From a virus, in IMG/VR virus record IMGVR_UViG_3300009182_000309, positions 1 through 24,403 of that record: a DNA stretch of 24,403 bases. One strand, given 5' to 3'. The translations under genes and the position numbers were made by a program. Position 1 is the stretch's first letter, and the number at the start of each line of letters is the position of its first letter. Below are positions 1,316 through 20,469 of the stretch, piece after piece. The notes beneath the pieces are model-generated. The model worked only from the letters and a program-made list of their open reading frames with translations, had not been told where the DNA came from and did no database searches.

Positions 1316-4300
1316 TTAATGGCCCTGTAAGAATCTAGCAGCGGCAGTGTTGGTTTCTTGTAAAGGTACTCCGTTACTGGCAGTATTTGGGCCCTGCTCG
1401 TACCAAGTTACTCCACGTTTAATTAATATAGTGACGTCGCTGCCATTGGCCGGTGCCGCAGTGAATTCAATGGTTACAGGATTTTCACTGACAAATGTAT
1501 ATCCTGAAGTTTGTAACTCACCCGCAACATACACTTGTACCGCACGATTCAACGGCTGCCAGTAAGTGGGATCGGTGATGGCTGTGTTAGCTGGTACTGT
1601 TCTTTTGGCATAATAGTAGTTGACGCCGTCTATCACTGTAGTAGCTCCAGAGTAACTGTCATATTCTATCCAGATCACAGTATTGGTACCGCTTAATGAT
1701 ATATCTGCTGCTGTGAATTCTGTAGCAACACCGTTGGCTAATATAGTATTGCTGACAATATAGTTTTGAAATTGTTCTGGCAGTAAATTACCTCTGCTTT
1801 CATTATAAACAGCAGCACCTACAGCATGAGCTGCGGCTGCTGTACCCGCTGTGCCACGCAATAAACTCCTGACTGAATTGTTGGCAAAGTCTATTTCACG
1901 ATACATGATACGTTCGCCATCGATAGTAACTACGCCCCAAATGTTAGCTATGAAATTGGGAATCGCTAATGCGTTAACATCTTTGACATAAATGACATCA
2001 TCGTTTAACGCCACAGGCTCAACTACAGTGGTAGTGGTGGCTACCGTGATTCTATACACTGCTTGTCCGCCACGCATGTCTTGGAATATACGGAAATCCA
2101 ATGCTTCCGGTACGATTGAGTTAGTGAACTGTGTGATTATTACGACATCAGTTGACTGTAGTATACCGTAAGTTAAGATAACTTGAGATTGAGCATCGAC
2201 AGTTTCTAATACATAATCTACATCAGGATTCAGCACTCTGCCGTTTAACGATACCCATAAACGTGAAGGATCAGTTATTATCGTTCCTAAATTTAAATTA
2301 TTAACTGAGGCCGTCGTACCAATAGTAGTGTCAAAGGATCCAGAATCGCCATTGTATAAATTAGTGTCATTGCTGCGGATATACTGTACTTCTAGTGCGT
2401 TTCCAGTGCCAGTACCCTGTATCGTAAATAATAATCCGGTCGTGGAACCAGTAACAGTTGTGATCGCTGCGCCACCCACAGTTTCAGAAAGAGTAAATGT
2501 AGTTACACCGTTGGTGGCTATGATATAGTAATTTTTAGCGGGTGGAGTATATCCTGTAATACCAGCTGACCCAGTTAACACGCCGGAAATAGTAATCATC
2601 TCGCCCACTCTCAGCGCAGACGAAGTTGCGGAACAGTGGAATTGTCCACTAGTGGTGATGATGGCATCAACTGGTATCGTCAAGTTAGCTAAGAACACCG
2701 TACCCACATTATTGTCAGGAGCACCTATCAGTGTAAAGTCAGTGGATCCTAATACATTAATTTGATACGCGAATCCATCTTTTAATGTGGTAGCCGGGAA
2801 TGGACCAGGAGTGTTAGCCAACACAACTTCATCTATAAACAACGTGTCATAGTTTATAGTATCAAATCCTTCGCTGACGGTAGTACCCACTGTGACTGGA
2901 CCCACAAATACCTGGGTTAATAGGCGTTGTTCTCTGGTATCATTCCATGTTGTAACGGTAATAGGCTGCCCGGCTACTGGCACAAGACCACGGTTAGGTA
3001 TAAATGACAGTGTACTGGCCACAGCATCGATAACTGCCTGTACGCCAGTTAGTACGGCAATACAAATTCTCGTATCTAGCGCAGGTGCTGTGCCGAAGGT
3101 CACGGTGGCGCCAGAGACCGCTGGGGTTACAGTATATGCGCTGGCATTTTGTAATACATCATTGAAGTATACCACTACATCCGCTGAAACTATCGCACTT
3201 TGATCAACACCCAATCTCTGTGCCACTTCAAATACTGTGGTAGTACCGTTGCCTAAATAATTAACGCCAGCAGCAGTACGAGCACGTATGCCGTTGACAT
3301 TGACCACAGCATTTATACTATTAGTATAGGCTAGACTGTTGGTCAGCGTATAAGTTAAGATGCCGGTGGCCGTGATGATCTGCGTTACAGGAGCACTCCA
3401 TGAGTAGTTTGTTGTGACCCCGTCAATGGTGGTGGGAGAAATAGCCACTAGACTGATAAAGTCACTGCTGCCATAAGTTGTAGCAAAATTGATTACGGTT
3501 GTGCCCGCTGCGGCTCCTGCTGTATAAGTGTAGCCGCTGGATAAGTAAACACCGTTGACAAAAATCGCAAATTCCTGTATTAAGTTATACTCAACCGGCA
3601 CAGTTAAATGATTTAGTACCTCACTGCCGTTGTAAATACCTTTGAATAGTTGATTGCCTCCGCCAAGTTCGTAAACATAAATGCCTAGTTGATCATTGTT
3701 TTTCACTAGTTGCGATGTTGACAATACTGTAAACGTCTGCGCTGCCCAATTTACAGTATAGTCTAAACCCAGAGTTAAATCATATCCGCGTGACTCATTG
3801 GTAACGATCAATGCCACAGGATATGGCATCAATCCGGTAAAGCTGATAGTAGGGGCAGCGGCACTATAGATTACCCTAGATAATCGTTGTGGGAATCCAT
3901 GACCAATACCCTGCCAGTCAGCTCCGGGTGTTGTGTACACACGATAATCTAAGGTATCAAATTCTATACCTGGTAGCAATTCTTCCGGTGCGTGACTTTC
4001 AAAAGCATCGACATAAGCCCCGCCCACGACATTGATGTCAGTGGCACGTGTACCCAAGTAGGGATCAACATACGAGCTTTCAAAGATAGTGTCTAATAAT
4101 CCTAAGAAATATGTAGGTTGCCCGTTAGCATCTAGTGAATAATTATCAAACGGCGTGATATCAAATGTACTACGCGAAAAACCAGTATTCATGTCAAATC
4201 CCAGACCTTGAACTTGAACGCCGGGATAGTCAATTCCATCTACTAACAAGGGCAGAGATAGACCAGGGGTATCAGGTGTTGATACATAATAACCCATGGT

Positions 4301-7300
4301 ACGATCAACTCCACTTAACGAACCTGCTTCCACTAACTGCCACTGGCTCGGGTCAAATATTGTATTTGTAACAGTGCCCAACGGTTGCCACACTTTATTG
4401 TCAGCTCTTACCAACTCGCCCGATGTGTAAGTTTCGCCAGATGTCCAGTTAATAATACTGGTTTTATATTCATAACGGTCGTACTTGATGGTAGTTTTGA
4501 TTGAGCGTACTTGGTTATTGCCCATGTAAGCCACAGCCTGTGCTCCAACTCCGTTACCGCCGGAAATAGTAATAATCGCTGTGGTTAGATATCCTGCTCC
4601 GGGATTGACTACCGTAATAGCAGCTACTTGGCCTGCGCCGTTGATCACGGCTTTCATCACTGCTGGTGTTGTACAGACTCCAGCTACTGTGACGACTGGG
4701 GTAGTAGTATATCCTGATCCACCCGATGCTATGGCTACACTTTGTATGCTTAGTAGATAATTAGTGAACCATTGATTATATAAACTGGGTTCAACCCAGA
4801 TCTGCGCATTTGGAGCAGCATCACTGACTGTGGAGTAATGCGGTGTAACTGCTACATCATAAGGTGTTAATATCGGGCTAACAAACTGTGGCAACTCTAA
4901 TGCTTTGTCCCAGTATGCTGGTAGATCAAAGTCAGTTATATCGCCTTGGAAATCATCTTCTCCTGTGTAGATTAAATTAAACTGTCGCACTTGTACGTGA
5001 TATGGTTTAACTTCGTTAAAGTAATCTAATACAAACTGTTGATTATCTGTGAGGTATGTTTGATAAGGTAATAAACTACGTATATTATGATTGACATCAA
5101 CGTAACTGGTTTTTACTAACCAAGAAGGATCAGTAAACTCACTGTAAACATAATTAAACATTAAGATTAAACTGCTGTTACGTTGTATCTCTAAATCGCC
5201 GACGTAAATTTCTTCGTTTAATGCTTGGATAATGTAGCGTGTTTCAACACGTGGCGACTCATCAAAATACTGAGCATCAAATACTTCAGCTCCAAATCCA
5301 AAATTGCCCACAGTATAATTCCACAGCGATTCGGCAAATGCTATGGTACCATCTTCGAGCCCCACACGGGTCCAATCATTGGCAGCATCTAACCCAGTGC
5401 GCAGATAGATCTCCCACTTACCCGCACCGTTATCGATCACACGAACACTGGAATTTACTGGCGCAGTGGTATAAGACAGAGTAGCTAACTGTCCATAGTT
5501 TTGTACCGCAGCCACAGGAGCTATGCTACTATTATACCCAGGGAGATACCAGTTTATATAATACCAGTACAGTGATGTAACATAACTTTGTACTTGTACT
5601 AATAGTAATGTACGAGTAGACTGTACTTGATAGATGGTCCAACGACCTTGTTGACTGCTGTCACTTAGAACTAGATAACGATATCCCACAGGCACAGCAT
5701 TGATATTTTGATAACCCAGTACTTCTAAGTTAGGTACTGTAAAATTCCACGCGCCGGAACTAGCCGTAGGTGTTGGCTGAGATGAATTTAATAAATTAAA
5801 ACTGCGTGTTTCTGTGATAGGATACTGTGCTAATACTGTATTGGCTCTTCCCAAATAATTCTGTAATGCCGTAAATCTATCAGCAAACATACTTTGTCGT
5901 GGTCTAAATTGCACACCAAAACGCATACCTGGACTCAGTGTTGGATCAGGCACAGAATTACCTGCTGTGTCAACACCACACAAACTATCTTGGAATTTAC
6001 GATATAGTTGTGTGTTTAAGAAACTATTGGCAACACCATCAGTGATGATTTGATACTCTTGGTGTACTACAGCATCATTTATTTGTTGATCAAAGCCCAC
6101 ACTTAAAATCGTGTTAGTGGAGTTCAGTAAGTTTTGAGCATTATAAATCGCTATTGTCGAAGCATTTAGTCCGGCAATGTAAGGTAATCCACTACTACGC
6201 GGATCTAATATATAACTACTGATGCCACTGCTACTGAGAGTTTTTCCAGATCCACTGGATATCGTGGTAATACCTTTGACCCAGAAATAATATAGTGTTT
6301 GGAAAATATTATTTTGACCTAGTTGTGAGCTGACGGTATAACTGATAGCACTCAATGGTGTACCAGGACCATTATAGTTAGCCGGAGGGATAGAACTTTC
6401 AACCCACTGATATATATCTACACTGCTGCCCGGAAATGTTGTTCCCCAACGTCTGCTGGCGTATAATATGTCATCTTGATTGGGATCAATAAACCTCACA
6501 GAGTTAGTGTCCCACCACATCTCACCGATATGCTCACTGGTCCACATATTACCGTTGTTGTGAACAGATCCTGTGTTGTACTGAGCAGGGTCAACAGCAC
6601 CTATATAATCAATATTTTGTCTAGCAACACCTAATATTTTTCCCTGTAAAGGATCAAAGAAATCAAAGTAGTTTTGAGTTCCTGCGTTAGCGGTAACGTT
6701 TACTCCAACAGCTTGCCCACCGCTATACGTAAATACGCTATTCAATGCGTATACATCTACCACCGGTTGTTGACTGCGTATAGGCATCCAAGCAGGTGAG
6801 TTGGTGGGATTATCGAATAATGTAATGTAACTCAAGTTAGTAGTATTGTTAGTCAACCCGCCAGGAGCGCCTATCATTAATCTGCCACTGGTATAATTTA
6901 CACTTACCCCAAATCTATCACCAGTTGCTGTATTACTGTTGTAAATTTGTTGGCCAAACGCAAATTGACCAGCATTGGCTAAGGTATTAGAGCTACCAGG
7001 GAAGTAATCATAGGTATATGCTACCCCGCCGTTGTTGATAGGATCAAAGAATGTAGTACTGTGTTCATCAAAATAAGTTTGTCCAGCATCAAATGTAGTG
7101 GCCTCATAGACATTGCCATTTGGAGCACCAACAATTAAGTTAACAGCGTTAGTATCAATGCTAAGTGCTGATCCAAACTGCCCATATGCTGTTGCCGCAG
7201 GACTTAATATCTGCTGTGTAAACACAAATGTATCAAACCCTAGTTGATCAAATACTGAATTCACTGGTCCCGGCAATACTGTGATCATGTTAGTGGCCAT

Positions 7301-10300
7301 GGCTGCTGCGGCATTTTCTACACTGACGGTCAATCTACCGGAAACTACTAATACTCTGCTTAGATTGCCAGGAGCATAGACAAAATTAATTTCTTCTGTA
7401 GCTGATGTGTAAGAATAATCTACCCCAAACGTCTGTAATATGTCATCTACATATACTACAGTGGTATAAGAAGTGGCTGTAGAGTACAGAGTTCCTATAT
7501 AAAATGCTTTAGTTGATCCATTGCCTACAAAAGTTAAATCTGGAGTAGGCACGGCAGCAACATTGGGTATTTTTGCTGCGTTAATCGCAGCAGCGAAACC
7601 TAATACTGTGTTATTGGGAGCAGCGGGTACAGTGACTACACTGTCATTTATTCTCAATGTTCCACTTGGCGTAAGCACAGGATTAGCCACGGCAGAAGTT
7701 GTAACTCCATATACTCTAGACTGATTTACCAAATGATCGACCGAACCTGCTTGAGGCACATAAGTGCTGTCAAACGGTGCTCCGACATATACGCTGCAGT
7801 TTAACGGGCATACACTAATCGCTGAACTAAATTTAGCTTCGTAACTGGGAGTGCTGGATGTAAACTGTTGAATCAGTTGTATATCATTAGTTTCAATTTC
7901 AATTATATCGCCCGCAGTAAATGTGATGTTAGTGAATACTATATTGCTGCCGCTAACCGTATACTGACCAGAAACTGATTCTGCTGTGCTGATTAAAAAT
8001 ACATTGTTTACAATCACAGCCACGGGAGAATTTACAACACCAGGCATCGCATAAGTTATTTGGCTAGTATTAGATACCAAATATCTGATCACGCTTCTGT
8101 CAAATACATATACACTGCCAGCCATGCCCAATGAATCTACTTCTGTGTTGACGGCGCCAATAACGATTTGTCTACCATCAGTTGTAGTGCCAACACTGGC
8201 GCCAAAATAATCTCCCATAACTGAGTCAGAGGATGTAATGCTGGTGATATATTGCCAGTAAGTTTTAGCTGTTACTATAATAACCGATCCTGCTGACGGG
8301 ACTGTTAAGAAAGTCAGTAGTGTGGTAGAGTTGTTAAATGTATAATCTAAATAAGGACGTTGTATCTGCCCGTTGACCGTTACAGTGAAACTATAAATGT
8401 TTGTAGCGGTGTACAACGACTGAGACAGCGTGAATGCTCTGGTATTGGTAGTGCTGCCACCAGTTGCAGTAAATGTTGTAATTGCGCCTGATTTTACAGC
8501 AGTCACTGTGATGACTAAATTGTTAGCTGGTGTCGTGCCGCCAATATCCGCACCATATACAGTCAGTGTATCACCTACTTTGTAAAACGCCCCACCGAAG
8601 TTCAGGGTGGTAAAGTAAACTCCGCGGGTATTGTTTAGTGTAAACACAGCACCTTGACCAACACCGGATGTCACACTTTGTTGTACACCATAATAAATTT
8701 CTTGATCTAGTTGTGTCTGTTGATTTCTAGTAATGGTCAATGTTTGATTGGCTGCCGGAGCGATACCAAATATCACATATAGCGAATCAACTGTAAATTC
8801 TAATCCCGGTATGGCAATGCTGTTTCCTATGGTGACTGTTATTTGATTTACATCAGCAAAATTAACTTGTAACGCACTGGTATATTCAAACTTTGAGGTT
8901 ACTCCGTCTGTTGTATAAACAATAGACTGAGCCTCAACATCGATACGTTCGTAGGCATAGACTGTGTTGTTACCAGGTGCGCTAATATACATCCAACGTT
9001 CGTCGCGGCTAATTGCTGCGCTAGATCCAAATCCAATCGCCGTAAAGTTTTGATCTGGCGCAACTAACAACTGTGTTTCAGAATAGGTACTGGCTGTTGA
9101 TGTGCGATAGATCATCGAAGCATAGCCAACTCCTGACAGACTAGCACTGGCACCAACTACGGCCCAGTTTTTGTTGCCAAAAGTAACTATGTTACCAAAT
9201 CCTGCGGTATCTCGCGCAGTTGGATTAAACGTGTAACTATAAACATAGTCAGTGTTAACGCCTCTGAAATAGGCCAACACCGCGCCAACCCCACTATTTG
9301 TGTTAGGGGCACCTACTAGTGCTCCAAAGTTGTCGGTGGTTTGTGTGAGGCTTACGGCATATTGATCCTGCGCCGAAAAGCCCGGAGTAATAGTAGAATT
9401 AGTGACAAATGGCGCTTGCTTTTGTAAAGTTTCCCAGTGTCCGTTGCCGTCGTTGTCTACCCAAACAATATCGCCGGGCGTTAGATGATTAACATATGAC
9501 AGCGTTGAGATATCGCTGGCTTGACTAACTCTAGCACTGTCTAGTTTAAATACCAGACCAACACCACCCACCGATGTTAAATTAGTATTGGTAAAGGTAA
9601 ACGCAATGGTAACCGTAGTGATCGATGGCGCCGATAGTACACGATAAACTCCATTTACTGCTGGATTAAAATACTTGATTATAATTAAATCAGAGACTGC
9701 TAGGCCATGTGCTGCGGTAAATGTAACTAGGCTTGTGCCGTTGAGATTGTTTGATAACAAGGTCATTTGACCTGGAACTTCTGCTACACGATATACGCCC
9801 CAGTTATAGCTGTTAATTTTAGCTATCCAGATGTAAGTGCCTATGCCTATCTTATTGAGGTTGGCATCAATCGCAGCAGGGTCTTGGATACTAAACACTG
9901 TAACATCAACATCATCTAAACATACATAGCCAGCTGTTGGCAATGCCGATGACAAACTGCTATTTTCATAAGTGGTAGGTAATACATTAGCAGTGGTTAT
10001 TCTATAACTTTCTCTCCATAAGTCGTTGACAAAAACTGTTTGGTTAGCCTGACTAGTTTCTCCAGGAACAATAATTTGTATAGTCGATGGGTTATACTTC
10101 AGCAGTGACTGATTCAACTGTATCTCAAAATAACTCCTATTGGCCTGTGCGCCGTATGTGCCAGACAGCACAGCCCAATTTTCATAAACATTATATTGCC
10201 CAGACTCTTTGCCTAAGTTAGCATTACTGAAAATTTGAGCCGCTAGTTTAGTTCCTTTAGTGCCAATAAATTGTTGATATAGTTGAACTTGTGTAACCCC

Positions 10301-13300
10301 GTTCAGATTCATATCAGTCATATACTGACGAGGTCGGAAACCAATCAAGCCAAAGGCAAATAGATCGTTGTCGCTGGTTAAGTTCGCTTGATATACATCG
10401 TAGGCGCTGACTAATTGATCTGCTTTATTGGCTAGGTTAGGTAATAAGCCTTGATCAATCATTTGATAATTGCTCTTGACCCAGTCATTGTAATTAAATG
10501 TTTGTTGCGGCTCACTTATAGTAATGGCTTGCCAATACGTGTTTTTGTACAATACTATCATACCTTTGGTATATTTGGTATAAGGTTGCCATTGTTTTAC
10601 ATTATTGAGATTTAAGATAAAGCCCTGAGCATTTAACTGGCCATCCCACTCTGTTGTAGTTGAAGCTATCAGACTGAGTCTAACTTGTCTAGCAGCCGTG
10701 ATAGGATTATAGATTAGATCATTATATTGACTAGTGTTGTTTAACACTACCATATCTTCATAGTTGGTAAATTTCAGTGTTAAGAAGTTAATCGTTTGAC
10801 CATTAGTGGTAGTAATTGAGAAAGAATTACCATCACGATAAACCACCATAGTTCTTACATCTAAGACTTTGTGATTTTGATCCAGCAACATATTTTCCGG
10901 TGTAACACTGGCAATGGTATCGACTATACTGATAGGCTGGCTAGCTGTAATTTTAGTAGCACAGGGATTAAGGTTGATCATCGTACCCAGCGTCCATCCT
11001 TGCCCGGCAAAATTTAAAAACTCCTGTGTCATCTGCTGCCAGTTTAATGTGTATCCATTTTCTACATTGTCAAAAACTATACCTTGATTTTCTAAAAAGC
11101 CACCGTAACTTAATAAGAAATCACAAACACTGGCGGTGTTGGTAAATGTATGACCGTAGGGAATCTCTGTGGTGTTTGTGGTATACTGCGAAGGTACATT
11201 TACTGAAATGTTACCAACTTTTATAGTTTGATAAGGTCCGGCGGGGTTGCTTACTAAAATTTCAAAGTAAGGTTGTACATTGCTGTAACCATATACAGTA
11301 TATCCCACGCTGCCGTTAATTAATTCTGTGACGGTGACGATTACCGAGCTGTATGTAATTTGATTAAATGGTTGATTCTTATAAAATAACAAGTCGTAAC
11401 TAGTGGGCGGTATCAGTAAACTATTATTGGTAGAATTAGGACCAGCGCGTTCAGTAAATAGTCGTAGATACACGGGATCTGAGAATGAGGCCATACGATA
11501 GCACAATCTCACATCGAGATTGGCCAATGCTTCTGTCAGTGCTGTGGTACTGTTAATACCTGATTGGCTGTAGTAATCAACGATCCAGTTTATATAACTG
11601 GCTTTACTCACGCCATTGCCATAAACCTGTACTCCACTGGCATTTAATCTATAACGGTTGTTATAGAGATATTGTCCCAATGTTGTGTTATAGCGATATA
11701 AGTCTCTATCAGCAAATAGCGAGAAGAACTGTGCTGGCTTAGTCAGTGCCATTAATCGCATTATGGCAAAAGGATAAGATGATGAATTCCACCATGATGC
11801 CTCAACAGGTCCGCCGTCGCCAGCTGCCCACGATGCTTGGAAAGAAAGAGGATCGTTTAACCCCACAAGTGATTCAAGGGGAGGTAATAACTCACCTTCG
11901 GTACCAGCGGGAATTATTTTGTTTAAGCCTGGTCTAATGTATTCTGGTAGCACATATGGTCCAGCAGGATCACCTACTATGCCAGCTTCTAAGTCATCCC
12001 ACAGTACATTATTGCCTGATGTGTAAGGAGCAGGACCATAACGTTCCATCCACCACATGGGTTCTTCACTGAAGCCAACCATTTCCCACGGGGTGGTATT
12101 GGGAGTCTCAGTATCGTAAAAATAACGATAGATGCCGCGCCAGTTACCTTGTAAAAGCTCAGCGCCATTGATGCGATTAGCTGACTGACTGTAATTATAA
12201 CTAAAAGGATTATCAGCAACGTAATTTTGTTGTGTATAATCTATTTTGTTTTGTCCTACCCAAGACAGGAAATCTTCGTTTAATATTTGATTTACTTCAG
12301 TGTAGGTATAAGGAGTATTGCGGAAAAATCCAGGTAACAATGCCGTAGTTTGTGCTGGATAAAAGTTTGGATCAACTTCATCTGTGGTTAAGGGAATTGG
12401 GTTATCATCTACTTTGATATTGTCGTAAATTCGTTTTTCAAATTCCAACAACACCTGATCTCGTATATCACCAAACGCGAGAGTAATACTACCATCATGA
12501 CCTTGTATCACCACTGTGGGTTCTGAATAAGTTTCATCGAGATATATTTCAGGCGTGTATTTGGGATACAATCCCATTTTACTAGGTGTATTTGGACACC
12601 AACTGGCTACTGTGGTAGGATATTCATTTATAACAACAACATCGCCAACCTTTAACGGCGCTAAAATTGTTAACTTGGGAGCTTCTGCTGATACGATATA
12701 CTGACTACCACGCACTAACAATACGCCGTTGACATAGACCAATAAACCAAGATAGTTACTAGATGTAAAATTATAAGTCTGTAGGGTGTTAAACGTTGCT
12801 GTGGTAACAGGGTTGACTATAGTAGTATTAGAAGTATAATTTGTCCCAGCAGGTAACATATCACTCCAGTAAAATGGACTGGAGCTAGTGAGATTTATAG
12901 TGATACTTCTTATCGCCGCATCGAGAATACTACTTACGGATTGATCTACACTTATATTCAATTGTGTTACAGCAGTCAATAATTTGTTTTTATACTTGAC
13001 ATATTCACGGCTATTGTAAGATAAAGCAGCAAATATATCATAATTTATACTTCTTAAAAAGTATCCAGCCAGTGTCAACGGCGATGACTGTTGTAAGATT
13101 TGTTGTCCGTAGGGAACAATATTACCTAAATCGCGTGTATTATTGGAGCCGTTTATTATACCTTGGAATGACGGCAAGTTTTCGCATACAGTGGCATAAT
13201 GTTGTCGTATCGTGCCAAGACTAAGTTGACTGCTGTTGCCATTAAAAGGATTGTTTTCTAAATTAATGGGTACTTGATAAAATCCTACTTTGCTGACCTG

Positions 13301-16300
13301 CGAACTGTATACCAACACTTCAATGATGTCGCCAGTAACGTAGCCACTACCAGTTAATGTGATTACGGTAGTGTTGGTATTGACATTAACTGACAATGTA
13401 TAACTGGTTGGCAGCTGATAAACATCATTGATGAAAATCTGTACAGCAGGAACATCCAAATTCGTAGCTGCTAATACGTCAAGTTGTAAAGGTACACCAG
13501 CGTAACTAAACTGAAATTGCTGGCGTGGCAGGGAAGGTACCGCTGCGGTTTGCCAGCCAAGTTCAGTGGTATAAGTTAATCTCGTCGAATATTGTCTCAC
13601 AAATCCAGTACTGACATCAACGGTTATACCTGCGTTAGTTTGTGTGTATACAAATGTATCAGTGTATAAATTATTATCAAATAATATGTCACCGATATTA
13701 TCTATACTGAAAAATGCTAGAGGAATTCCTAAGACACTGTCAACAGGATTGTCGAGATTTTCAGAGTAACTTAACAGTTTACAGCCGGTAAAATTGGTAC
13801 TAGGATAATATTCTATATCACCAAAACTGTACCCACTGCTGTTATATACATCAAACATGGGTGCTTGATTGACTGAAGTTTTTTGCTGTGCTTGAATCCA
13901 ATCAGTACCATTGTAATAAAAACTTTTACCGGGCAGAGTTAGTCCACTTGTACAGAATGTACTTTGATTTAGCAACGCCGTAGTCACTGGAACTAGATCA
14001 ATAATAGGTGTGGTGATCGCTGGATTAGGTACGATAAATGTAACTTTGTAAATTTGATTGCGCACACTAGGACTGGCATCGGCGGCAAAAATTACTAAAC
14101 TGTCTTGCTCTAATGTATAGCCATCTGTACCATAACCAATTTGCCCATTGACATTTTCTAGTGCGTTAGTCTGTGTAAAGTCAATGACATTTACAGGAGT
14201 AATACCTTCAACGCCAAAATTAAATAATTTTGTACCTGCTCTAAATTCTAAAATAGGTCTGTTGGCTCGCTGAACATTATAATAAGTTGGTGCGGTGTTA
14301 TTATATGCTGCGGTAGCTGAGATTACTTCAGTGTGAAACCATCTGTTACTTCTTGTCCAAGGGTTGTGATCAATACTAGCTTGACTTATCGTTATATAAT
14401 CAGGTTTAAGGGGTTGATTACCGTACGAGTCAATAGAGCCGCCACTGACGTAAACTCCTATCGCTGAGCTAGCATATACAACCTGAGAAGTTGTTGCTGA
14501 AACTACCGTAAAAATTCCGTTGTAATTACCAGTCGCTGATACAATATTAGATACTATGATTAATTCACCTGGCACAAAGGGCACAGTGGATTGTGGGAAA
14601 TAAGTTAAAGTTACTTCTGTGCCAGTGCCACTAACACCAGTTATTGTTATGGTACTGACTTCGGCAGCGTACATTTCAGGTACGATAAATTCAGTGACCG
14701 GCAATAATACAATTGCAGATCCCACACCCTGCACATAATAGCTGTTACCTTGATATTGCGCAGGTGTTATAGCACCTTGGAATACTACCTTGAGCCCATT
14801 GGTAAATGTAACGCCATTTGGGCTAGTGTATGTTTTTTTACCTAAAATATCAGTGACAACATCTATACTGGCGTTGGCAGCTTGATCTATTAAGTTGATA
14901 GTACCAAACATATTTGGATCTTGTCCATCTTGATAAAACAGATAGGGCAGTGTTGCCGTCAACAAAGGAATTTGAGTAAAAAAGCCCTGACTATTTTTAT
15001 ACCACTGCGTGTTTACATACTCGGCACCGCCGCTAATAGAAAATTGTGTTAATGGCTCTACACTTTGTATAGACGTTAGATATATGAATACAGTACCTGT
15101 TTCATCAGTTTGATAATTTGCGCGCCATATACTAAATTGCACAGCAGGATCAGCTATTGGTGTAGCTTGATCAAATGGAATAGAATCAAAAGTACCCGAT
15201 TGACCATCTGTGGGGTCGGGCGAGCCAGTAATTTCCGTTGTTACCGTATTAAAAGGATAAACATCATAATTTTGACCCGCTACATCGTAACTGATCTGTT
15301 GTGATGTTTGATTGGGAGCAGTTCTAATCTGTGGTGAAAAAGGACTTAAGAAATACCATCCGCCATCTTCAACATTGGTTAACTGTGTAGTAAACACCAG
15401 TGTTTGATTGTTGAGATTGGTTATTCCATCGATTCCGTTGGGGTAAGAGTTCAAGAAACTTTCCACAGTTACACCATTGATCTTGTCAAACTGATATTGT
15501 GGTCCAGCTATTAAATTTACTCTGCCGATGTTTGGCATCGAGTAATAAAAATTCTGTGCCGTGCTTAAAGGCACGTTGAAAGATACTGTGCCTAAATCAG
15601 TACCGTTGTTGGTAACGCCTAGCACCGTGCGATCAGAAATATTAGGACTCCACGGAAGTACACCGTTGATTCCAGGTTGTGTTTGAATCCAAAATCCTGG
15701 CCCCGAACCAGGTATAGCGTCAACTATGTTTAGTTGACCACGTAGATTAAATTCTAAATCATTACAATAATATAGTACGTCGGGAGCATCTTGTGGCACT
15801 GTAAAAATAACTAAGCCCTGCGAGGCACCGCCGTTAGTCACACCCTGTGACCATATATTAGTTGTACCAAAACTTAATTCTGTCTTAATGTAAAAAGCAA
15901 GAGGTAAATTTTGTATTAAATTAAAAGTATAAGTATTTCCACGAACTAAAGTTAATGTGGGGTTAGGCTCATAGTCAATGGCCCAAGAGCTCGTACCGTT
16001 GTTAGTAACGCGATAGTCAATGGCATCTGTGTTGTTTTGCGCCACTGTAAATTGATAGCTACCACCTCTAACTAAAGTAATAGCAGGATTAGTACCAGTA
16101 TAGCCACTGATAGTATAAGAACCATTTGCTCGTGTAACTGTAAACGTCTGTGTAGTTGGAATTTGTGTTCCTGCTACCGTAACTGCGTCTGGACCATTTG
16201 GCAACCAGTAGTATTGGGCATAATTGTTTAGTTTGTCAAAATCAACGAATGGATCCCACGAATAGTACTCACTTTCAAATAATCTATCAGCTTGATCAAC

Positions 16301-16612
16301 TATGCCGCCTTGTGTACGCAAGGCATCTAATATGCCGGGATAGGTTATGACATCATCGATAGCCGAAGTGGCAGGATTCAGTGACACCACCCCTGGTTCT
16401 AATTGATAGTTGTTGCGACTGGGTGTTGGCTCAACAACATAACTGTCATTGGGATTTACTCCTGGTCCAACTTTTTGTCCTATGAAACCCTGTGTTTGTT
16501 TGTATTGTGGTTCTTGGACAAGTTGATCTAGAGTCGCTGATAAAAATTGTTTGTTTACTGGAGTTTGAAATATTTCCGGTAAGAAGTCAACTGTGCGAAT
16601 TTGATTGGCCAT
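1316..16612 (-). CDS. Giant baseplate/tail structural protein, 5098 residues
   Basis: One uninterrupted frame of 15,297 bases; ATG at 16612 shares its A with the TAA of gp6 (TAATG). The protein is about 0.55 MDa, with no signal peptide or membrane helices, and is rich in N, T, S, Y, V and Q as is typical of beta-structured virion proteins. The N-terminus (residues 1-140) has motifs RTVDFLPEIFQTPVN, QGFIGQKVGPGVN and YYSWDPFVDFDK. Then follow, roughly: cupredoxin-like sandwiches (170-370), a conserved-looking block (1100-1640), a chitin-binding-like segment (2004-2042), a seven-blade FG-GAP-like propeller with inserts (2420-3265), a second conserved-looking block (3310-3935), a G-x-GY repeat pair (3960-4030), SHAPEELLPG (about 4206), and beta-sandwich modules up to a C-terminus ending ARFLQGH. 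Similar N- and C-terminal motifs occur in very large structural proteins of T4-like aquatic phages (from memory). It follows gp25 and gp6, where T4 has genes 7-10, so an outer-wedge or arm role is inferred. Confidence 0.9.
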   Translation of the reverse strand: MANQIRTVDFLPEIFQTPVNKQFLSATLDQLVQEPQYKQTQGFIGQKVGPGVNPNDSYVVEPTPSRNNYQLEPGVVSLNPATSAIDDVITYPGILDALRTQGGIVDQADRLFESEYYSWDPFVDFDKLNNYAQYYWLPNGPDAVTVAGTQIPTTQTFTVTRANGSYTISGYTGTNPAITLVRGGSYQFTVAQNNTDAIDYRVTNNGTSSWAIDYEPNPTLTLVRGNTYTFNLIQNLPLAFYIKTELSFGTTNIWSQGVTNGGASQGLVIFTVPQDAPDVLYYCNDLEFNLRGQLNIVDAIPGSGPGFWIQTQPGINGVLPWSPNISDRTVLGVTNNGTDLGTVSFNVPLSTAQNFYYSMPNIGRVNLIAGPQYQFDKINGVTVESFLNSYPNGIDGITNLNNQTLVFTTQLTNVEDGGWYFLSPFSPQIRTAPNQTSQQISYDVAGQNYDVYPFNTVTTEITGSPDPTDGQSGTFDSIPFDQATPIADPAVQFSIWRANYQTDETGTVFIYLTSIQSVEPLTQFSISGGAEYVNTQWYKNSQGFFTQIPLLTATLPYLFYQDGQDPNMFGTINLIDQAANASIDVVTDILGKKTYTSPNGVTFTNGLKVVFQGAITPAQYQGNSYYVQGVGSAIVLLPVTEFIVPEMYAAEVSTITITGVSGTGTEVTLTYFPQSTVPFVPGELIIVSNIVSATGNYNGIFTVVSATTSQVVYASSAIGVYVSGGSIDSYGNQPLKPDYITISQASIDHNPWTRSNRWFHTEVISATAAYNNTAPTYYNVQRANRPILEFRAGTKLFNFGVEGITPVNVIDFTQTNALENVNGQIGYGTDGYTLEQDSLVIFAADASPSVRNQIYKVTFIVPNPAITTPIIDLVPVTTALLNQSTFCTSGLTLPGKSFYYNGTDWIQAQQKTSVNQAPMFDVYNSSGYSFGDIEYYPSTNFTGCKLLSYSENLDNPVDSVLGIPLAFFSIDNIGDILFDNNLYTDTFVYTQTNAGITVDVSTGFVRQYSTRLTYTTELGWQTAAVPSLPRQQFQFSYAGVPLQLDVLAATNLDVPAVQIFINDVYQLPTSYTLSVNVNTNTTVITLTGSGYVTGDIIEVLVYSSQVSKVGFYQVPINLENNPFNGNSSQLSLGTIRQHYATVCENLPSFQGIINGSNNTRDLGNIVPYGQQILQQSSPLTLAGYFLRSINYDIFAALSYNSREYVKYKNKLLTAVTQLNISVDQSVSSILDAAIRSITINLTSSSPFYWSDMLPAGTNYTSNTTIVNPVTTATFNTLQTYNFTSSNYLGLLVYVNGVLLVRGSQYIVSAEAPKLTILAPLKVGDVVVINEYPTTVASWCPNTPSKMGLYPKYTPEIYLDETYSEPTVVIQGHDGSITLAFGDIRDQVLLEFEKRIYDNIKVDDNPIPLTTDEVDPNFYPAQTTALLPGFFRNTPYTYTEVNQILNEDFLSWVGQNKIDYTQQNYVADNPFSYNYSQSANRINGAELLQGNWRGIYRYFYDTETPNTTPWEMVGFSEEPMWWMERYGPAPYTSGNNVLWDDLEAGIVGDPAGPYVLPEYIRPGLNKIIPAGTEGELLPPLESLVGLNDPLSFQASWAAGDGGPVEASWWNSSSYPFAIMRLMALTKPAQFFSLFADRDLYRYNTTLGQYLYNNRYRLNASGVQVYGNGVSKASYINWIVDYYSQSGINSTTALTEALANLDVRLCYRMASFSDPVYLRLFTERAGPNSTNNSLLIPPTSYDLLFYKNQPFNQITYSSVIVTVTELINGSVGYTVYGYSNVQPYFEILVSNPAGPYQTIKVGNISVNVPSQYTTNTTEIPYGHTFTNTASVCDFLLSYGGFLENQGIVFDNVENGYTLNWQQMTQEFLNFAGQGWTLGTMINLNPCATKITASQPISIVDTIASVTPENMLLDQNHKVLDVRTMVVYRDGNSFSITTTNGQTINFLTLKFTNYEDMVVLNNTSQYNDLIYNPITAARQVRLSLIASTTTEWDGQLNAQGFILNLNNVKQWQPYTKYTKGMIVLYKNTYWQAITISEPQQTFNYNDWVKSNYQMIDQGLLPNLANKADQLVSAYDVYQANLTSDNDLFAFGLIGFRPRQYMTDMNLNGVTQVQLYQQFIGTKGTKLAAQIFSNANLGKESGQYNVYENWAVLSGTYGAQANRSYFEIQLNQSLLKYNPSTIQIIVPGETSQANQTVFVNDLWRESYRITTANVLPTTYENSSLSSALPTAGYVCLDDVDVTVFSIQDPAAIDANLNKIGIGTYIWIAKINSYNWGVYRVAEVPGQMTLLSNNLNGTSLVTFTAAHGLAVSDLIIIKYFNPAVNGVYRVLSAPSITTVTIAFTFTNTNLTSVGGVGLVFKLDSARVSQASDISTLSYVNHLTPGDIVWVDNDGNGHWETLQKQAPFVTNSTITPGFSAQDQYAVSLTQTTDNFGALVGAPNTNSGVGAVLAYFRGVNTDYVYSYTFNPTARDTAGFGNIVTFGNKNWAVVGASASLSGVGYASMIYRTSTASTYSETQLLVAPDQNFTAIGFGSSAAISRDERWMYISAPGNNTVYAYERIDVEAQSIVYTTDGVTSKFEYTSALQVNFADVNQITVTIGNSIAIPGLEFTVDSLYVIFGIAPAANQTLTITRNQQTQLDQEIYYGVQQSVTSGVGQGAVFTLNNTRGVYFTTLNFGGAFYKVGDTLTVYGADIGGTTPANNLVITVTAVKSGAITTFTATGGSTTNTRAFTLSQSLYTATNIYSFTVTVNGQIQRPYLDYTFNNSTTLLTFLTVPSAGSVIIVTAKTYWQYITSITSSDSVMGDYFGASVGTTTDGRQIVIGAVNTEVDSLGMAGSVYVFDRSVIRYLVSNTSQITYAMPGVVNSPVAVIVNNVFLISTAESVSGQYTVSGSNIVFTNITFTAGDIIEIETNDIQLIQQFTSSTPSYEAKFSSAISVCPLNCSVYVGAPFDSTYVPQAGSVDHLVNQSRVYGVTTSAVANPVLTPSGTLRINDSVVTVPAAPNNTVLGFAAAINAAKIPNVAAVPTPDLTFVGNGSTKAFYIGTLYSTATSYTTVVYVDDILQTFGVDYSYTSATEEINFVYAPGNLSRVLVVSGRLTVSVENAAAAMATNMITVLPGPVNSVFDQLGFDTFVFTQQILSPAATAYGQFGSALSIDTNAVNLIVGAPNGNVYEATTFDAGQTYFDEHSTTFFDPINNGGVAYTYDYFPGSSNTLANAGQFAFGQQIYNSNTATGDRFGVSVNYTSGRLMIGAPGGLTNNTTNLSYITLFDNPTNSPAWMPIRSQQPVVDVYALNSVFTYSGGQAVGVNVTANAGTQNYFDFFDPLQGKILGVARQNIDYIGAVDPAQYNTGSVHNNGNMWTSEHIGEMWWDTNSVRFIDPNQDDILYASRRWGTTFPGSSVDIYQWVESSIPPANYNGPGTPLSAISYTVSSQLGQNNIFQTLYYFWVKGITTISSGSGKTLSSSGISSYILDPRSSGLPYIAGLNASTIAIYNAQNLLNSTNTILSVGFDQQINDAVVHQEYQIITDGVANSFLNTQLYRKFQDSLCGVDTAGNSVPDPTLSPGMRFGVQFRPRQSMFADRFTALQNYLGRANTVLAQYPITETRSFNLLNSSQPTPTASSGAWNFTVPNLEVLGYQNINAVPVGYRYLVLSDSSQQGRWTIYQVQSTRTLLLVQVQSYVTSLYWYYINWYLPGYNSSIAPVAAVQNYGQLATLSYTTAPVNSSVRVIDNGAGKWEIYLRTGLDAANDWTRVGLEDGTIAFAESLWNYTVGNFGFGAEVFDAQYFDESPRVETRYIIQALNEEIYVGDLEIQRNSSLILMFNYVYSEFTDPSWLVKTSYVDVNHNIRSLLPYQTYLTDNQQFVLDYFNEVKPYHVQVRQFNLIYTGEDDFQGDITDFDLPAYWDKALELPQFVSPILTPYDVAVTPHYSTVSDAAPNAQIWVEPSLYNQWFTNYLLSIQSVAIASGGSGYTTTPVVTVAGVCTTPAVMKAVINGAGQVAAITVVNPGAGYLTTAIITISGGNGVGAQAVAYMGNNQVRSIKTTIKYDRYEYKTSIINWTSGETYTSGELVRADNKVWQPLGTVTNTIFDPSQWQLVEAGSLSGVDRTMGYYVSTPDTPGLSLPLLVDGIDYPGVQVQGLGFDMNTGFSRSTFDITPFDNYSLDANGQPTYFLGLLDTIFESSYVDPYLGTRATDINVVGGAYVDAFESHAPEELLPGIEFDTLDYRVYTTPGADWQGIGHGFPQRLSRVIYSAAAPTISFTGLMPYPVALIVTNESRGYDLTLGLDYTVNWAAQTFTVLSTSQLVKNNDQLGIYVYELGGGNQLFKGIYNGSEVLNHLTVPVEYNLIQEFAIFVNGVYLSSGYTYTAGAAAGTTVINFATTYGSSDFISLVAISPTTIDGVTTNYSWSAPVTQIITATGILTYTLTNSLAYTNSINAVVNVNGIRARTAAGVNYLGNGTTTVFEVAQRLGVDQSAIVSADVVVYFNDVLQNASAYTVTPAVSGATVTFGTAPALDTRICIAVLTGVQAVIDAVASTLSFIPNRGLVPVAGQPITVTTWNDTREQRLLTQVFVGPVTVGTTVSEGFDTINYDTLFIDEVVLANTPGPFPATTLKDGFAYQINVLGSTDFTLIGAPDNNVGTVFLANLTIPVDAIITTSGQFHCSATSSALRVGEMITISGVLTGSAGITGYTPPAKNYYIIATNGVTTFTLSETVGGAAITTVTGSTTGLLFTIQGTGTGNALEVQYIRSNDTNLYNGDSGSFDTTIGTTASVNNLNLGTIITDPSRLWVSLNGRVLNPDVDYVLETVDAQSQVILTYGILQSTDVVIITQFTNSIVPEALDFRIFQDMRGGQAVYRITVATTTTVVEPVALNDDVIYVKDVNALAIPNFIANIWGVVTIDGERIMYREIDFANNSVRSLLRGTAGTAAAAHAVGAAVYNESRGNLLPEQFQNYIVSNTILANGVATEFTAADISLSGTNTVIWIEYDSYSGATTVIDGVNYYYAKRTVPANTAITDPTYWQPLNRAVQVYVAGELQTSGYTFVSENPVTIEFTAAPANGSDVTILIKRGVTWYEQGPNTASNGVPLQETNTAAARFLQGH
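1400..3850 (-). other. C-terminal beta-sandwich module array of the giant protein
   Basis: Residues about 4260-5070 hold five copies of a short module with the pattern (V/I)-x-V/F-N-x-V-x-L/Q, then (D/S)Y-x-(V/Y)-T, then a hydrophobic strand, then G-(D/S)-x-(I/V)-x-I. Examples are FVNGVYLSSGYTYTAG (about 4350), VVYFNDVLQNASAYTV (about 4478), LWVSLNGRVLNPDVDYVL (about 4784) and VQVYVAGELQTSGYTF (about 5024). Another six copies lie upstream in the same protein. Between them (about 4895-4955) is a block with TIDGERIMYREIDF and LLRGTAGT, a motif set often seen in phage fibre-like proteins. Likely rod-forming or spacer domains. Confidence 0.6.
4900..6670 (-). other. Second conserved-looking block of the giant protein
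   Basis: Residues about 3314-3904, directly after the propeller, lack repeats and are rich in aromatic residues and charged motifs: HIGEMWWDTNSVRF, ILYASRRWGTTFPGSS, VQFRPRQSMFADRF, SEFTDPSWLVKTSYVDV and YFNEVKPYHVQVRQF. These look like a folded core rather than spacer domains. FRPRQ also occurs in GFRPRQYMTDM at about residue 2085, hinting at a distant internal duplication. Function unknown. Confidence 0.45.
6810..9350 (-). other. FG-GAP-like seven-blade beta-propeller region with inserted domains
   Basis: Seven candidate blades, each with an FG(x)-S-x or equivalent strand, then an (L/I/V)-x-(V/I)-(G/S)A(P/x) core and a GxV-x-x-Y/F strand. They lie at about residues 2421 (DNFGALVGAPN), 2470 (WAVVGASAS), 2520 (GFGSSAAIS, YISAPGNN), 2795 (DYFGASVG, IVIGAVN), 2927 (KFSSAISV, VYVGAPF), 3140 (GQFGSALS, LIVGAPNG) and 3227 (DRFGVSVN, LMIGAPGG). 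FG-GAP repeats form the integrin alpha seven-blade propeller. Large inserts separate blades 3-4, 4-5 and 5-6 and contain beta-sandwich modules. Blade assignment was by eye and is inference; the repeated FG and VGAP motifs are directly visible. Confidence 0.6.
11695..13312 (-). other. First conserved-looking block of the giant protein
   Basis: Residues about 1100-1640 are a non-repetitive, probably globular region. Visible motifs include FYQVPINLENNPFN, LGTIRQHYATVCENL, RDLGNIVPYG, NSREYVKYKNKLL, VVIQGHDGSITLAFGD, LLEFEKRIYDNIKV, EEPMWWMERYGP and FFSLFADRDLYRYN. Such a run of charged and aromatic residues stands out against the beta-spacer domains around it and suggests a packing core in the baseplate. 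One spacer-type beta-sandwich module sits inside it at about residues 1286-1330. Confidence 0.45.
15505..16105 (-). other. Tandem cupredoxin-like domains near the N-terminus of the giant protein
   Basis: Residues about 170-370 contain repeated strands of the type ITLVRGGSYQFTV (176), LTLVRGNTYTFNL (217), FTVPQDAPDVLYYCNDLEF (267) and VSFNVPLSTAQNFYY (338). The V-RG-x-x-Y-x-F strand followed by VP-x-x-AP-x-x-x-YY is typical of the cupredoxin-like beta-sandwich. No full copper-ligand set can be made out, so a structural rather than redox role is inferred. Confidence 0.5.
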
Positions 16613-19600
16613 TAAATTACCCCGCTACCAGGAGCAGTCTGCAGATTTGTACTAGTCAATGAATTAATTATTTCTATATCACGGATAGTTGCGCCATTTA
16701 CAAAAATTTGGTATGGAGCGCATTGTATTTCATACAAGTCACCAAATGATTTCTGAGGATTTAAGGGAACTAAAACCACTGACGACACATAAGTGCCCAC
16801 TTGTGAATGTATATATGCGGCTAACTCTGAGAAGTAAAAGGTTTGACCAAACTCCCAATTGGCAATATTAAAGTAAGAATTCATGGTAGCTAGTACTAGA
16901 TTTTGTATTTGATTGTTACTGGCATTGGTATTAGCAGCAGGTATAACTTTAATAGTAGCTCTCAATGCCTCTGCTGCCTTACTACCAAATAAAGGTTGAA
17001 ACTCAACGCTGTTAAGAATCATGTTATCACTGATCATCTTATAATTTTGTAGACCAGCGTAGGCCGTTGTTAGTTCATCGATGGTAGGAGGCAATGGTTC
17101 TGTGACCGTACCAGTTGTATCTTGTATCCATTGTTGATAAGAGGTATAATATTCTAGTGTAACGATATACAAATCGATAATGTTAGTGCTGCCGGGATCA
17201 ATGAGGTTAGTTAATGCGCTGTTGTGTCTATATTGGAAATATAGATCTTGTCTACCAATCTGTGCTATCCATCCTGAGGTTAATGTCAACACTCGTGTGC
17301 CAGATAAATTTAAAGTTAAGGTATAAAAGTTTTGTTCTTGATAAGCGTAAAATACCTTGCCAGTTACATACTGTTCTTTAACTAGTTCTATAGCAGCTAA
17401 TGTGGCATAGTCACCGTCAACTGACCCTGCTGGCTGTAGTATATAACGTTCCAAATTATCAAAGTCAACTGTCTGCTGGAAAAATACAAAAGGTTGTTTG
17501 GCAGCAGTACTGGCAGGAGATACGCCAACTATCTCTGTAAAGAAGTCAGGATCATCAGGTATACCATCGTTGTTATGATCCTGATAGCTGACTAATATTT
17601 GATAGTCATCAACAAGCCCGTCGCTGAGCACAGGCTGACCTATAATTTTAAGCGGTATGTCAGTTAACAGCGGATAGTTAGTATAAGGTTGACTATTAGT
17701 TTTTAATACTTTAATGAAGTCACTGATCACAGTACCCGTGCGACTGTCATAGATAGCTTGTGCGGTATCAAAGAAGAAACGTACTTCTATTACACTACCC
17801 CAATAATAATCAAGACTTCTAGTCACGGCAGTATATTGTGATCCATCATAGGTACATTGTATTAACCAACTGGCATCGAGATTTGCGCCGGCAGTACTAC
17901 CAGCATGAGCTTGGCTCCATGTAGCACCCACTGCGAGATTGTTAGCAGTAATCACATACCATGTATAGGGCGTGCCAGTAATTGTACCTGTACTGTCATA
18001 GCCTAGACCAAAATTAGCCTTAATTACTATTTGATTATAGATAGTCTGCTGTACAGCGGTGCCAAAGGTAGACACAAACAAAGGTATTACTATGGTGGCA
18101 ATAGCCCCGGTTGGCACGTAGGTATTAATTACCACTGGACCTGTACCATCAGTTAAATTACCAAGACCGTTGTTAGTACCATTGCCTATTATAGCAGTGG
18201 GGCTAGCCCAAATTATTAAATGATCGGCAGCTTCCGTTGGTACACCGGGCTTTAACTCATTACTACTGTCAAAATAGTACCCAGTTGGGGGAACAAATTT
18301 AATTAATGCTCCTTCTACAATAAATCTAGCATTGTTACTGGCAGTAGATCCGATGGCCACTGGTGTACCGGTACTATTGACAAAATACCCAGTGGTTTCA
18401 TTTACTATCGTAGTACTTTCATGCCATGAATAATTTAATGCTGTTAAATCTGGACGAGAAAAATTAGCGTAGTAAAATTGTCTAGTCGTGGCTTTTATCA
18501 GTATAGGCGTTAAATCATTTAAGATAACATTGTTGATGTCATTGGTAGTTTGCCAGGTAAATGTAAATGCGGGTGTGGTATTTGTATACCACATAGCGCC
18601 ATCAGAACCAAACACATTAGTAGAAGAATATTTTCCAGTTGGATCAACTAAGTCAAGATAGCGACTGGTTCCGATAGAACTGCGATTTAGTGCGGCACTT
18701 TTAATGATAGAATTGTATGTGGTAAACGGGAAATTAGTATAGTCCTCTCCGTTTACCATGCGATTTTGTGTGTAATAACGAGCAGGGGCACGTTCTTTGA
18801 TCTGCGTAATAGTTTCTCTAGGAGCTGCATTAGTGACTGGCGTTGTCAACCCGCAGGTAAAGGTAATAGTTTCAATACTACCAGTACGACTCACATACGA
18901 GATAGGTATTGATACTGACTGCATTTGTTCGGGGTTAATAATATATTGTAGTCCATTTGATGCACGGACATAAGTTCTAAACTGACCAACTGGAATCGCT
19001 GAGAATACATTATCACCAAATACCATTGTTATTTGATCATTGGTTCTACTGGCTACAGAAAATACTGTGCGTAGAGTAGGTGTCATTTGCTCAACGGCCG
19101 CGGCATATACAGACGGAACCATGCGCCACTCTGTACGTAAATTACCTAAATTATCTAACTGATATAACCATACATCTGTGTTGTTGATACCATCTATATT
19201 GATATTAACAGTACGATTAGCGATGCTCTCAACTAAATTAAAATCTTGACTTTGTAATACACCCTGTTTAAAGTAAAAGAAAAACCCAGTATTGCCACTA
19301 GCATAACCTAGCTGATCGTTTCTAAATAAAATATTAAACTGACCATTAGGCAAAGGGGGCGGTTCGTAAATATAAGTTTCGTTTAATGAAGTGGCGTTAA
19401 CGGCTTCGAACGGCATGTTGATGCCATCGATGGTAGCAGTATAGGGAATCACCGGAATGTAACCCGGTACTAGATTAACCGTATACTCTTGTGTGTCCAC
19501 ACCTAATATAGTTTGATTGTTACCAGGATTACCCACTCTTTGTGTATCAACTAGTGCGGCGTTAACAATAGTTATGAACTGTTCTTGCCAATCAAAATTA

Positions 19601-20043
19601 CTGGGATCAGCCCAGTTAACGGTGACGTTAGAAAGACTAACGCCATTATAATCTGTTAAATTTTCTGTAGTAGATACAGAAAATACTTTGAGATAACCAT
19701 TGGCTTCGCTGTTACGTTGAGGAGTATAGGAAACTAAGTTAGCTAGTTTAATTACGCTGTCTCTACGTTCTGCTGTGTCAATGTAATTTTCTCGGGTATT
19801 TAAGTCCGAGCGAAATGCGAGACTCTGGCCCATAAAGGCCATGACATCAAGCAAGGCGATGAATTCTGAAGATTCAATATAGTCATTAAACGTCTCAGGA
19901 TAATATTGTTGTAAATAGTCAACAAAACTTTTGCGTAGTGTTTCAAAATCGTAAGATTGAAAATTACCCTCGCTATAAGTTTGGTATATTCTTTTCCAAT
20001 CTTCTACCCCAAAAAGGACTGTTTGTCTTGTAGTCGTTGCCAT
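16612..20043 (-). CDS. gp6: Baseplate wedge protein gp6-like, 1143 residues
   Basis: Strong family match by motif. Residues 78-110 carry FRSDLNTRENYIDTAERR then DSVIKLANLVSYTP, the signature N-terminal helix region of T4 gp6-type wedge proteins. RMVNGEDYTNFPFTTYNSI follows at about 425 with LNRSSIGTSRYLDLVDPTG. The C-terminus has WEFGQTFYFSELAAYIHSQVG (about 1060-1080) and FGDLYEIQC. In T4 gp6 dimers form the ring that ties the wedges together and senses sheath contraction. At 1143 residues this is far longer than T4 gp6 (about 660), with extra strand-rich sequence around residues 590-760. ATG at 20043 is preceded by TAGGAA and a late promoter; its stop overlaps the giant gene by one base, so the two are probably co-transcribed and coupled. 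Confidence 0.95.
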   Translation of the reverse strand: MATTTRQTVLFGVEDWKRIYQTYSEGNFQSYDFETLRKSFVDYLQQYYPETFNDYIESSEFIALLDVMAFMGQSLAFRSDLNTRENYIDTAERRDSVIKLANLVSYTPQRNSEANGYLKVFSVSTTENLTDYNGVSLSNVTVNWADPSNFDWQEQFITIVNAALVDTQRVGNPGNNQTILGVDTQEYTVNLVPGYIPVIPYTATIDGINMPFEAVNATSLNETYIYEPPPLPNGQFNILFRNDQLGYASGNTGFFFYFKQGVLQSQDFNLVESIANRTVNINIDGINNTDVWLYQLDNLGNLRTEWRMVPSVYAAAVEQMTPTLRTVFSVASRTNDQITMVFGDNVFSAIPVGQFRTYVRASNGLQYIINPEQMQSVSIPISYVSRTGSIETITFTCGLTTPVTNAAPRETITQIKERAPARYYTQNRMVNGEDYTNFPFTTYNSIIKSAALNRSSIGTSRYLDLVDPTGKYSSTNVFGSDGAMWYTNTTPAFTFTWQTTNDINNVILNDLTPILIKATTRQFYYANFSRPDLTALNYSWHESTTIVNETTGYFVNSTGTPVAIGSTASNNARFIVEGALIKFVPPTGYYFDSSNELKPGVPTEAADHLIIWASPTAIIGNGTNNGLGNLTDGTGPVVINTYVPTGAIATIVIPLFVSTFGTAVQQTIYNQIVIKANFGLGYDSTGTITGTPYTWYVITANNLAVGATWSQAHAGSTAGANLDASWLIQCTYDGSQYTAVTRSLDYYWGSVIEVRFFFDTAQAIYDSRTGTVISDFIKVLKTNSQPYTNYPLLTDIPLKIIGQPVLSDGLVDDYQILVSYQDHNNDGIPDDPDFFTEIVGVSPASTAAKQPFVFFQQTVDFDNLERYILQPAGSVDGDYATLAAIELVKEQYVTGKVFYAYQEQNFYTLTLNLSGTRVLTLTSGWIAQIGRQDLYFQYRHNSALTNLIDPGSTNIIDLYIVTLEYYTSYQQWIQDTTGTVTEPLPPTIDELTTAYAGLQNYKMISDNMILNSVEFQPLFGSKAAEALRATIKVIPAANTNASNNQIQNLVLATMNSYFNIANWEFGQTFYFSELAAYIHSQVGTYVSSVVLVPLNPQKSFGDLYEIQCAPYQIFVNGATIRDIEIINSLTSTNLQTAPGSGVI

Positions 20044-20094: not shown

Positions 20095-20469
20095 TCACAC
20101 GTAACTTGCGCTACGCTGTGTTTGATTAAAGAATATAGATAAAAGCTGTGCGTCAGTAGTAGCCACAGTTTGTAGTTGGATTTGTATTAACATCCCGTTT
20201 TCTTGGGGAAACATATAGATATTGTTGATGTATATACGTGGATCGCCGCCGGCTACACGCTGAATTTCAGTATAGATCGCAGATTGTGTTTCTGATGTTT
20301 GATTTTCAAACAAATAATCCCATAACAAAGTACCATATCCAGGTCTGCCCACTAGCTCACCTTGCCTAATATTAAAAGCATTCAGCAAGTCTCGCTTTAT
20401 CAAGTCGAAGTCAACAAGAGTAAACTGTTTATTTTGATTAATTGTGTTGAATCCGATGAATGTGGCCAT
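20095..20469 (-). CDS. gp25: Baseplate wedge protein gp25-like (GPW/gp25 family), 124 residues
   Basis: Full-length for the family (T4 gp25 is 132 residues). Residues 22-55 read as DLIKRDLLNAFNIRQGELVG then RPGYGTLLWDYLFE, with the conserved GE-x-x-x-RP-x-YG-x-x-LW core. I-x-x-EI-x-R and GDPRI follow at 65-79, then an alternating strand ending in a region for self-association. gp25 is the sheath-initiator protein at the rim of the baseplate, equivalent to TssE in type VI secretion. ATG at 20469 lies 10 bases after the stop of the 560-residue gene, with only a weak purine stretch (TAAGTAA), so translation may depend on coupling. Confidence 0.95.
   Translation of the reverse strand: MATFIGFNTINQNKQFTLVDFDLIKRDLLNAFNIRQGELVGRPGYGTLLWDYLFENQTSETQSAIYTEIQRVAGGDPRIYINNIYMFPQENGMLIQIQLQTVATTDAQLLSIFFNQTQRSASYV

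Follow-up and report, generated by a model that had tools for sequence, protein, structure and literature searches.

The window analysed here, a single virus record of 24,403 bases, encodes a giant baseplate protein that contains a complete seven-blade FG-GAP propeller of predicted integrin type. This domain was gained once, by clean insertion into a core baseplate-region protein, and it marks one clade of relatives; a single member, L154, has cleanly lost it again, and the natural loss provides a control. Phages with and without the domain can now be compared directly to ask what tail propellers do, a role still unproven in phage phiKZ.

Baseplate-type genes lie on the minus strand of the window in the order gp5-like hub, a 560-aa protein, gp25, gp6 and the giant protein of 5098 aa (Table 1). 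PHROGs matches cover the giant protein on both flanks of the propeller, and none falls within the propeller. These flanks and the order gp5, gp25, gp6, giant protein are those of the RaK2-like giant baseplate-region proteins (phrog_10938), relatives of which are present in IMG/VR and in jumbo phages. The PA5oct relative (EST35_0128) is marked ESI-MS/MS in its record, which identifies it as a virion protein. In the virion list of phAPEC6, gp245 (382 kDa) adjoins a baseplate wedge protein (PMC7247149), and by its size and place it is probably another relative. The initial annotation placed the propeller inside a phage baseplate protein, and this assignment is supported by the gp5-, gp25- and gp6-like neighbours and by relatives detected in virions by mass spectrometry (PMC7247149).

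Several further properties of this region were recorded. The 560-aa protein (20480-22162, between the gp5- and gp25-like genes) has no family match in PHROGs or Pfam, while residues 142-299 of the giant protein (15716-16189) match phrog_677, a baseplate wedge tail fiber protein connector (E 9.6e-10). The giant protein has relatives (L150, L177, L158 and others) of up to about 6,500 aa, and its most length-variable stretch, near the C-terminus (residues 4300-4760; 2333-3715), is missing in some relatives. By sequence, no relation to solved T4-type wedge proteins such as gp7 was found: profiles of three conserved parts match no baseplate chain in the PDB, and agreement with gp7 is limited to a position following gp25 and gp6. 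When the upstream part and three flank profiles (after the propeller, the conserved core only) were searched against the PDB, no baseplate chain was returned, the sole match being a weak one to an intraflagellar transport protein (E 0.038).

Table 1. Features of the window, with the evidence on which each is placed.
Feature	Position	Strand	Basis
gp5-like baseplate hub protein	22171..23700	-	phrog_13211, E 2.1e-40
gp25-like baseplate wedge subunit	20095..20469	-	phrog_43, E 3.2e-11
gp6-like baseplate wedge subunit	16612..20043	-	phrog_10646, E 4.9e-285
Giant protein, 5098 aa, phrog_10938-type virion structural protein, carries propeller	1316..16612	-	ORF; PHROGs; relatives
Host hairpin strand 1, residues 2393-2398 (WETLQK)	9419..9436	-	conserved; intact without propeller in L154
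Propeller as inserted unit, residues about 2399-3274	6791..9418	-	absent at same place in PA5oct, L154, L168, L172
N-terminal strand, residues 2403-2408, proposed closing strand D of blade 7	9389..9406	-	strand in both models; pairing inferred
Blade 1	9227..9361	-	motif, leave-one-out profile, model
Blade 2	9065..9199	-	motif, leave-one-out profile (weakest), model
Blade 3, strands A-C	8942..9031	-	motif, leave-one-out profile, model
Insert, 227 aa, between strands C and D of blade 3	8261..8941	-	model, alignment
Blade 3, strand D (YWQYITSI)	8237..8260	-	model, alignment
Blade 4, strands A-C; strongest Pfam FG-GAP_2 match	8096..8206	-	Pfam, motif
Insert, 70 aa, blade 4; sandwich module, residues 2842-2909	7886..8095	-	model, module matches
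Blade 4, strand D	7862..7885	-	model, alignment
Blade 5, strands A-C	7724..7831	-	motif, alignment
Insert, 161 aa, blade 5; sandwich module, residues 3019-3087, missing in some relatives	7241..7723	-	model, alignment
Blade 5, strand D	7208..7240	-	model, alignment
Blade 6	6944..7177	-	motif, leave-one-out profile, model
Blade 6 long B-C loop, FDxxxTxFDxxST (D3175, T3179, D3182, T3186)	7031..7123	-	alignment
Blade 7, strands A-C	6812..6913	-	motif, leave-one-out profile, model
Host hairpin strand 2, residues 3275-3280 (WMPIRS)	6773..6790	-	alignment; propeller-free relatives

A regular expression for the FG...GAP core has exactly seven matches in the giant protein, at residues 2418, 2472, 2528, 2803, 2928, 3146 and 3234; the segments span residues 2418-3250, with none elsewhere, and 500 shuffles of the protein gave a mean of 0.29 matches and a maximum of 3. 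This expression was derived from the seven segments themselves, and a leave-one-blade-out profile is the fairer and stronger test. When a profile of six blades was applied to the seventh, five blades scored above every one of their own 3000 shuffles, blade 5 was matched by 1 of 3000 and blade 2, the weakest, by 6 of 3000. All seven blades are conserved in 75 relatives (less than 95% identical), and most rows retain [FY]G together with a core of the G[AS][PSN] type. The seven FG-GAP segments first proposed at about residues 2420-3265 are confirmed by these results. The Pfam family FG-GAP_2 (PF14312) matches the window well above its cut-off of 23 (48.8 bits, E 8e-13) and all 28 of 28 aligned members at E <= 0.1, but Pfam alone resolves only two of the seven repeats in the window, most blades being too diverged for single matches. 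For this reason, the count of seven blades draws on the motifs, the relatives and the models in combination.

AlphaFold2 produced confident models of the window propeller (pLDDT 87.5, pTM 0.86) and of its counterpart in L019, a relative with fewer inserts (pLDDT 91.9, pTM 0.91). When the L019 model was compared with the PDB by Foldseek, integrin-alpha chains took the top 21 places (E 3e-9 to 1.3e-7, probability 1.00), with TM-scores, normalised by the 440-450-aa target, of up to 0.60 within these places and 0.62 at rank 37. The superpositions have an rmsd of 8-13 A, of which the inserts are the probable cause. For the window model, the first PDB match was a cyanophage A4 tail chain (TM-score 0.10), followed by many integrin-alpha chains. 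A seven-blade integrin-type propeller is a well-supported fold prediction, and closure of the ring is predicted from the seven motifs and the full-length integrin match. The models also bear out the suggestion that beta-sandwich modules loop out from such a propeller.

The Asp-rich calcium-binding loops that the initial annotation proposed to look for in each blade are absent. The A-B turns, which read F, GNKN, SRDER, TTDGR, CPLNC, DTNAV and SG, contain no integrin-type DxDxDG loop, so the propeller does not belong to the calcium-type integrin repeats. DNDGNG, the one motif of DxDxDG-like form shown for the window, is located before the ring, and a search of the record with PF01839 (FG-GAP, integrin alpha) gave no match. 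The A-B turn of blade 5 carries a nearly invariant CxxxC (residues 2935-2939; 7796-7810).

The inserts had been estimated at about 240, 90 and 180 residues and placed between blades. These estimates are close to the lengths found, 227, 70 and 161 aa, but the inserts lie within blades 3, 4 and 5, between strands C and D. As had been proposed, they contain beta-sandwich modules: four copies of one module make up much of the inserts, and the same module recurs elsewhere in the giant protein, at residues 1266-1329, 4447-4518 and 5024-5062, with weaker matches at 4341-4382 and 4776-4827. The blade-3 insert combines sandwich modules at residues 2560-2632 and 2722-2785 with a glycine-rich module (2636-2727) that some relatives lack. 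More generally, one module or another is missing in some relatives, CBM5/12-like segments occur among the inserts of a few, and in distant members such as L141 and L155 the ring occupies the same site with almost no inserts.

The propeller is an insertion of about 875 aa between two hairpin strands of the host domain, the first of which holds W2393 and K2398, among the most conserved positions in the 75 relatives. It is cleanly absent from PA5oct, L154, L168 and L172, where a short, hairpin-like stretch directly connects the two flanks, which places the ring at the hairpin tip. In L154, an environmental relative, the open frame continues across the site, in frame and without N, and the hairpin is intact; its sister L148 carries the ring. 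A tree of 96 downstream-core sequences, built by a short search with a midpoint root and an unsure long XacN1 branch, places all 73 rows with a propeller in a single clade of 74 (support 99), a pattern for which one gain and a later loss in L154 are enough. Isolated RaK2-like jumbo phages have the giant protein and no propeller, and scans for relatives recovered at least 499 propellers and at least 592 downstream cores. A different arrangement is seen in L125, L132, L135, L136, L137, L038 (Atu_ph07) and L039 (Phosso), where 1500-3000 aa of other sequence lie between the conserved cores; a search of this sequence for blades gave no hits. Clean gain and loss, together with the success of relatives that have no ring, would be compatible with a neutral ornament or leftover insertion with no function of its own. 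This is hardly credible, given that seven blades are retained across strongly diverged relatives, that one loop is conserved and that only one loss occurs in 74 rows.

The ring evolves faster than its surroundings, with a mean pairwise identity of 0.49 against 0.64 in both flanking cores among 67 full-length relatives. No hypervariability of the propeller was found, identity being fairly even along the ring, and no wholesale domain swapping was seen in the 75 relatives; the ring thus lacks both features looked for as marks of a phage receptor-binding protein. The evenness of identity and the absence of swapping weigh against the idea that the propeller and its inserts form the main receptor-binding domain and determine host range, and the most length-variable part of the giant protein lies elsewhere, at residues 4300-4760. 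Such a role, which the integrin-type fold and the coming and going of inserts, including the CBM5/12-like segments in a few relatives, would favour, is considered very unlikely. Carbohydrate-binding families in the window gave no match above their own cut-offs.

Conservation also differs between the loops of the ring. With blade and strand limits taken from model secondary structure and a reading of the alignment, on which face-wise conservation depends, the D-A loops are the least conserved (0.51); in integrins, the D-A loop face is the ligand-binding face. The B-C loop of blade 6, which has low confidence in the window model, is the most conserved B-C loop (0.70). Its FDxxxTxFDxxST motif has invariant Asp and Thr and is kept in the nearly insert-free rings of L141 and L155, which makes this loop a candidate binding or contact site, as judged from the alignment.

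The explanation proposed here is that the giant protein acquired, once, a closed seven-blade FG-GAP_2 propeller at a beta-hairpin tip. Because a closed ring has its N- and C-termini next to each other, it could be inserted or removed and leave the host domain undisturbed. The first strand past the hairpin would probably close blade 7, and the beta-sandwich modules that are repeated elsewhere in the protein would loop out from the C-D turns of three blades. The ring may project from the baseplate wedge and serve as an exposed, accessory surface for interactions. Its likeliest task would be weak, multivalent contact with the host surface, given six wedges per tail should the T4 copy number apply; a close alternative would be to dock other parts of the tail. 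That the ring is an accessory exposed platform, most likely for host-surface contact, is given about an even chance. Its faster change, the weakly conserved D-A loops, the clean loss and the FG-GAP_2 proteins beside the tail genes of relatives point to host-surface contact, and phi11 offers a precedent in a baseplate receptor-binding protein that uses a propeller (PMC4901313). Against a platform count the lack of hypervariability, the near-constant retention of the ring and the conserved blade-6 loop, which could equally contact the baseplate.

On a rival reading, the ring would be a structural element that keeps tail fibres or adjacent wedges in place. A precedent is the nozzle protein of phage SU10, whose seven-blade propeller in the tail has Ig-like domains between its blades as insertions and bears a fibre dock loop (PMC9509320). 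The ring is nearly always retained within its clade, its blade-6 loop is strongly conserved and its insert modules recur in the remainder of the giant protein. Docking or bracing fits about as well as glycan or receptor binding, the role suggested in the initial annotation. Its faster evolution than the structural core, the cleanly joined site in ring-free L154 and the existence of large related phages that manage without it speak against bracing, which is regarded as a serious possibility that falls short of an even chance. A bolder form of the platform reading, in which an uncultured jumbo-phage clade grips its hosts by a wedge-mounted integrin-type propeller, gained once, with the blade-6 FDxxxTxFDxxST loop as putative binding site, is a long shot; if true, it would be a phage counterpart of integrin-style adhesion.

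The open-access literature searched yielded no paper that names an FG-GAP propeller in a phage baseplate. The nearest structural likeness is the integrin alpha-chain propeller (PDB 4wk2, 4wk4, 9ind), which likewise has seven blades with FG...GAP cores and aligns over the whole ring. The phage ring differs in its lack of DxDxDG calcium loops and in the sandwich modules of its C-D turns in blades 3-5, and identity is 10-12%; unlike typical FG-GAP_2 repeats, its blades are split by long inserts. No relative of the propeller was found by tblastn among isolated phages or bacterial and archaeal genomes, and phmmer and profile searches of the PDB gave nothing significant.

Among phages, RaK2 ORF070, 121Q gp582 and PA5oct EST35_0128 (phrog_10938) have colinear flanks and the same place after gp25 and gp6, but no propeller. 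PF14312 is absent from nine of 11 jumbo-phage records and present in Atu_ph07 and Phosso, outside the giant protein. These members of the same wider phage group encode FG-GAP_2 as separate, stand-alone proteins. Atu_ph07 gp320 (L122:5019-6200), annotated as a hemagglutinin, is a small protein adjoining tail-sheath genes. In Sinorhizobium phage Phosso, gp107 (L121:4339-13827; 3162 aa) and gp108 (L121:13901-24979; 3692 aa), both annotated as hypothetical, are strings of FG-GAP_2 repeats with 16 and 34 blade-profile hits, respectively.

Chain U of the cyanophage A4 portal-tail complex (PDB 9k09) matches the window model at E 1.1e-9, a local likeness only at a TM-score of 0.10, and nothing on this chain was found in open-access literature. 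SU10, likened here by its published description, is a short-tailed phage whose propeller belongs to a nozzle rather than a baseplate (PMC9509320). In the jumbo phage phiKZ, gp131C (PDB 4GBF) is a seven-blade propeller at the baseplate periphery with an unproven role (PMC4901313); this likeness also follows the description, and gp131C is a separate protein, unlike the ring within the giant protein. The baseplate receptor-binding protein of phi11 differs in having five blades and in forming a trimer with stem and tower, and its propeller cavity could hold its sugar ligand (PMC4901313).
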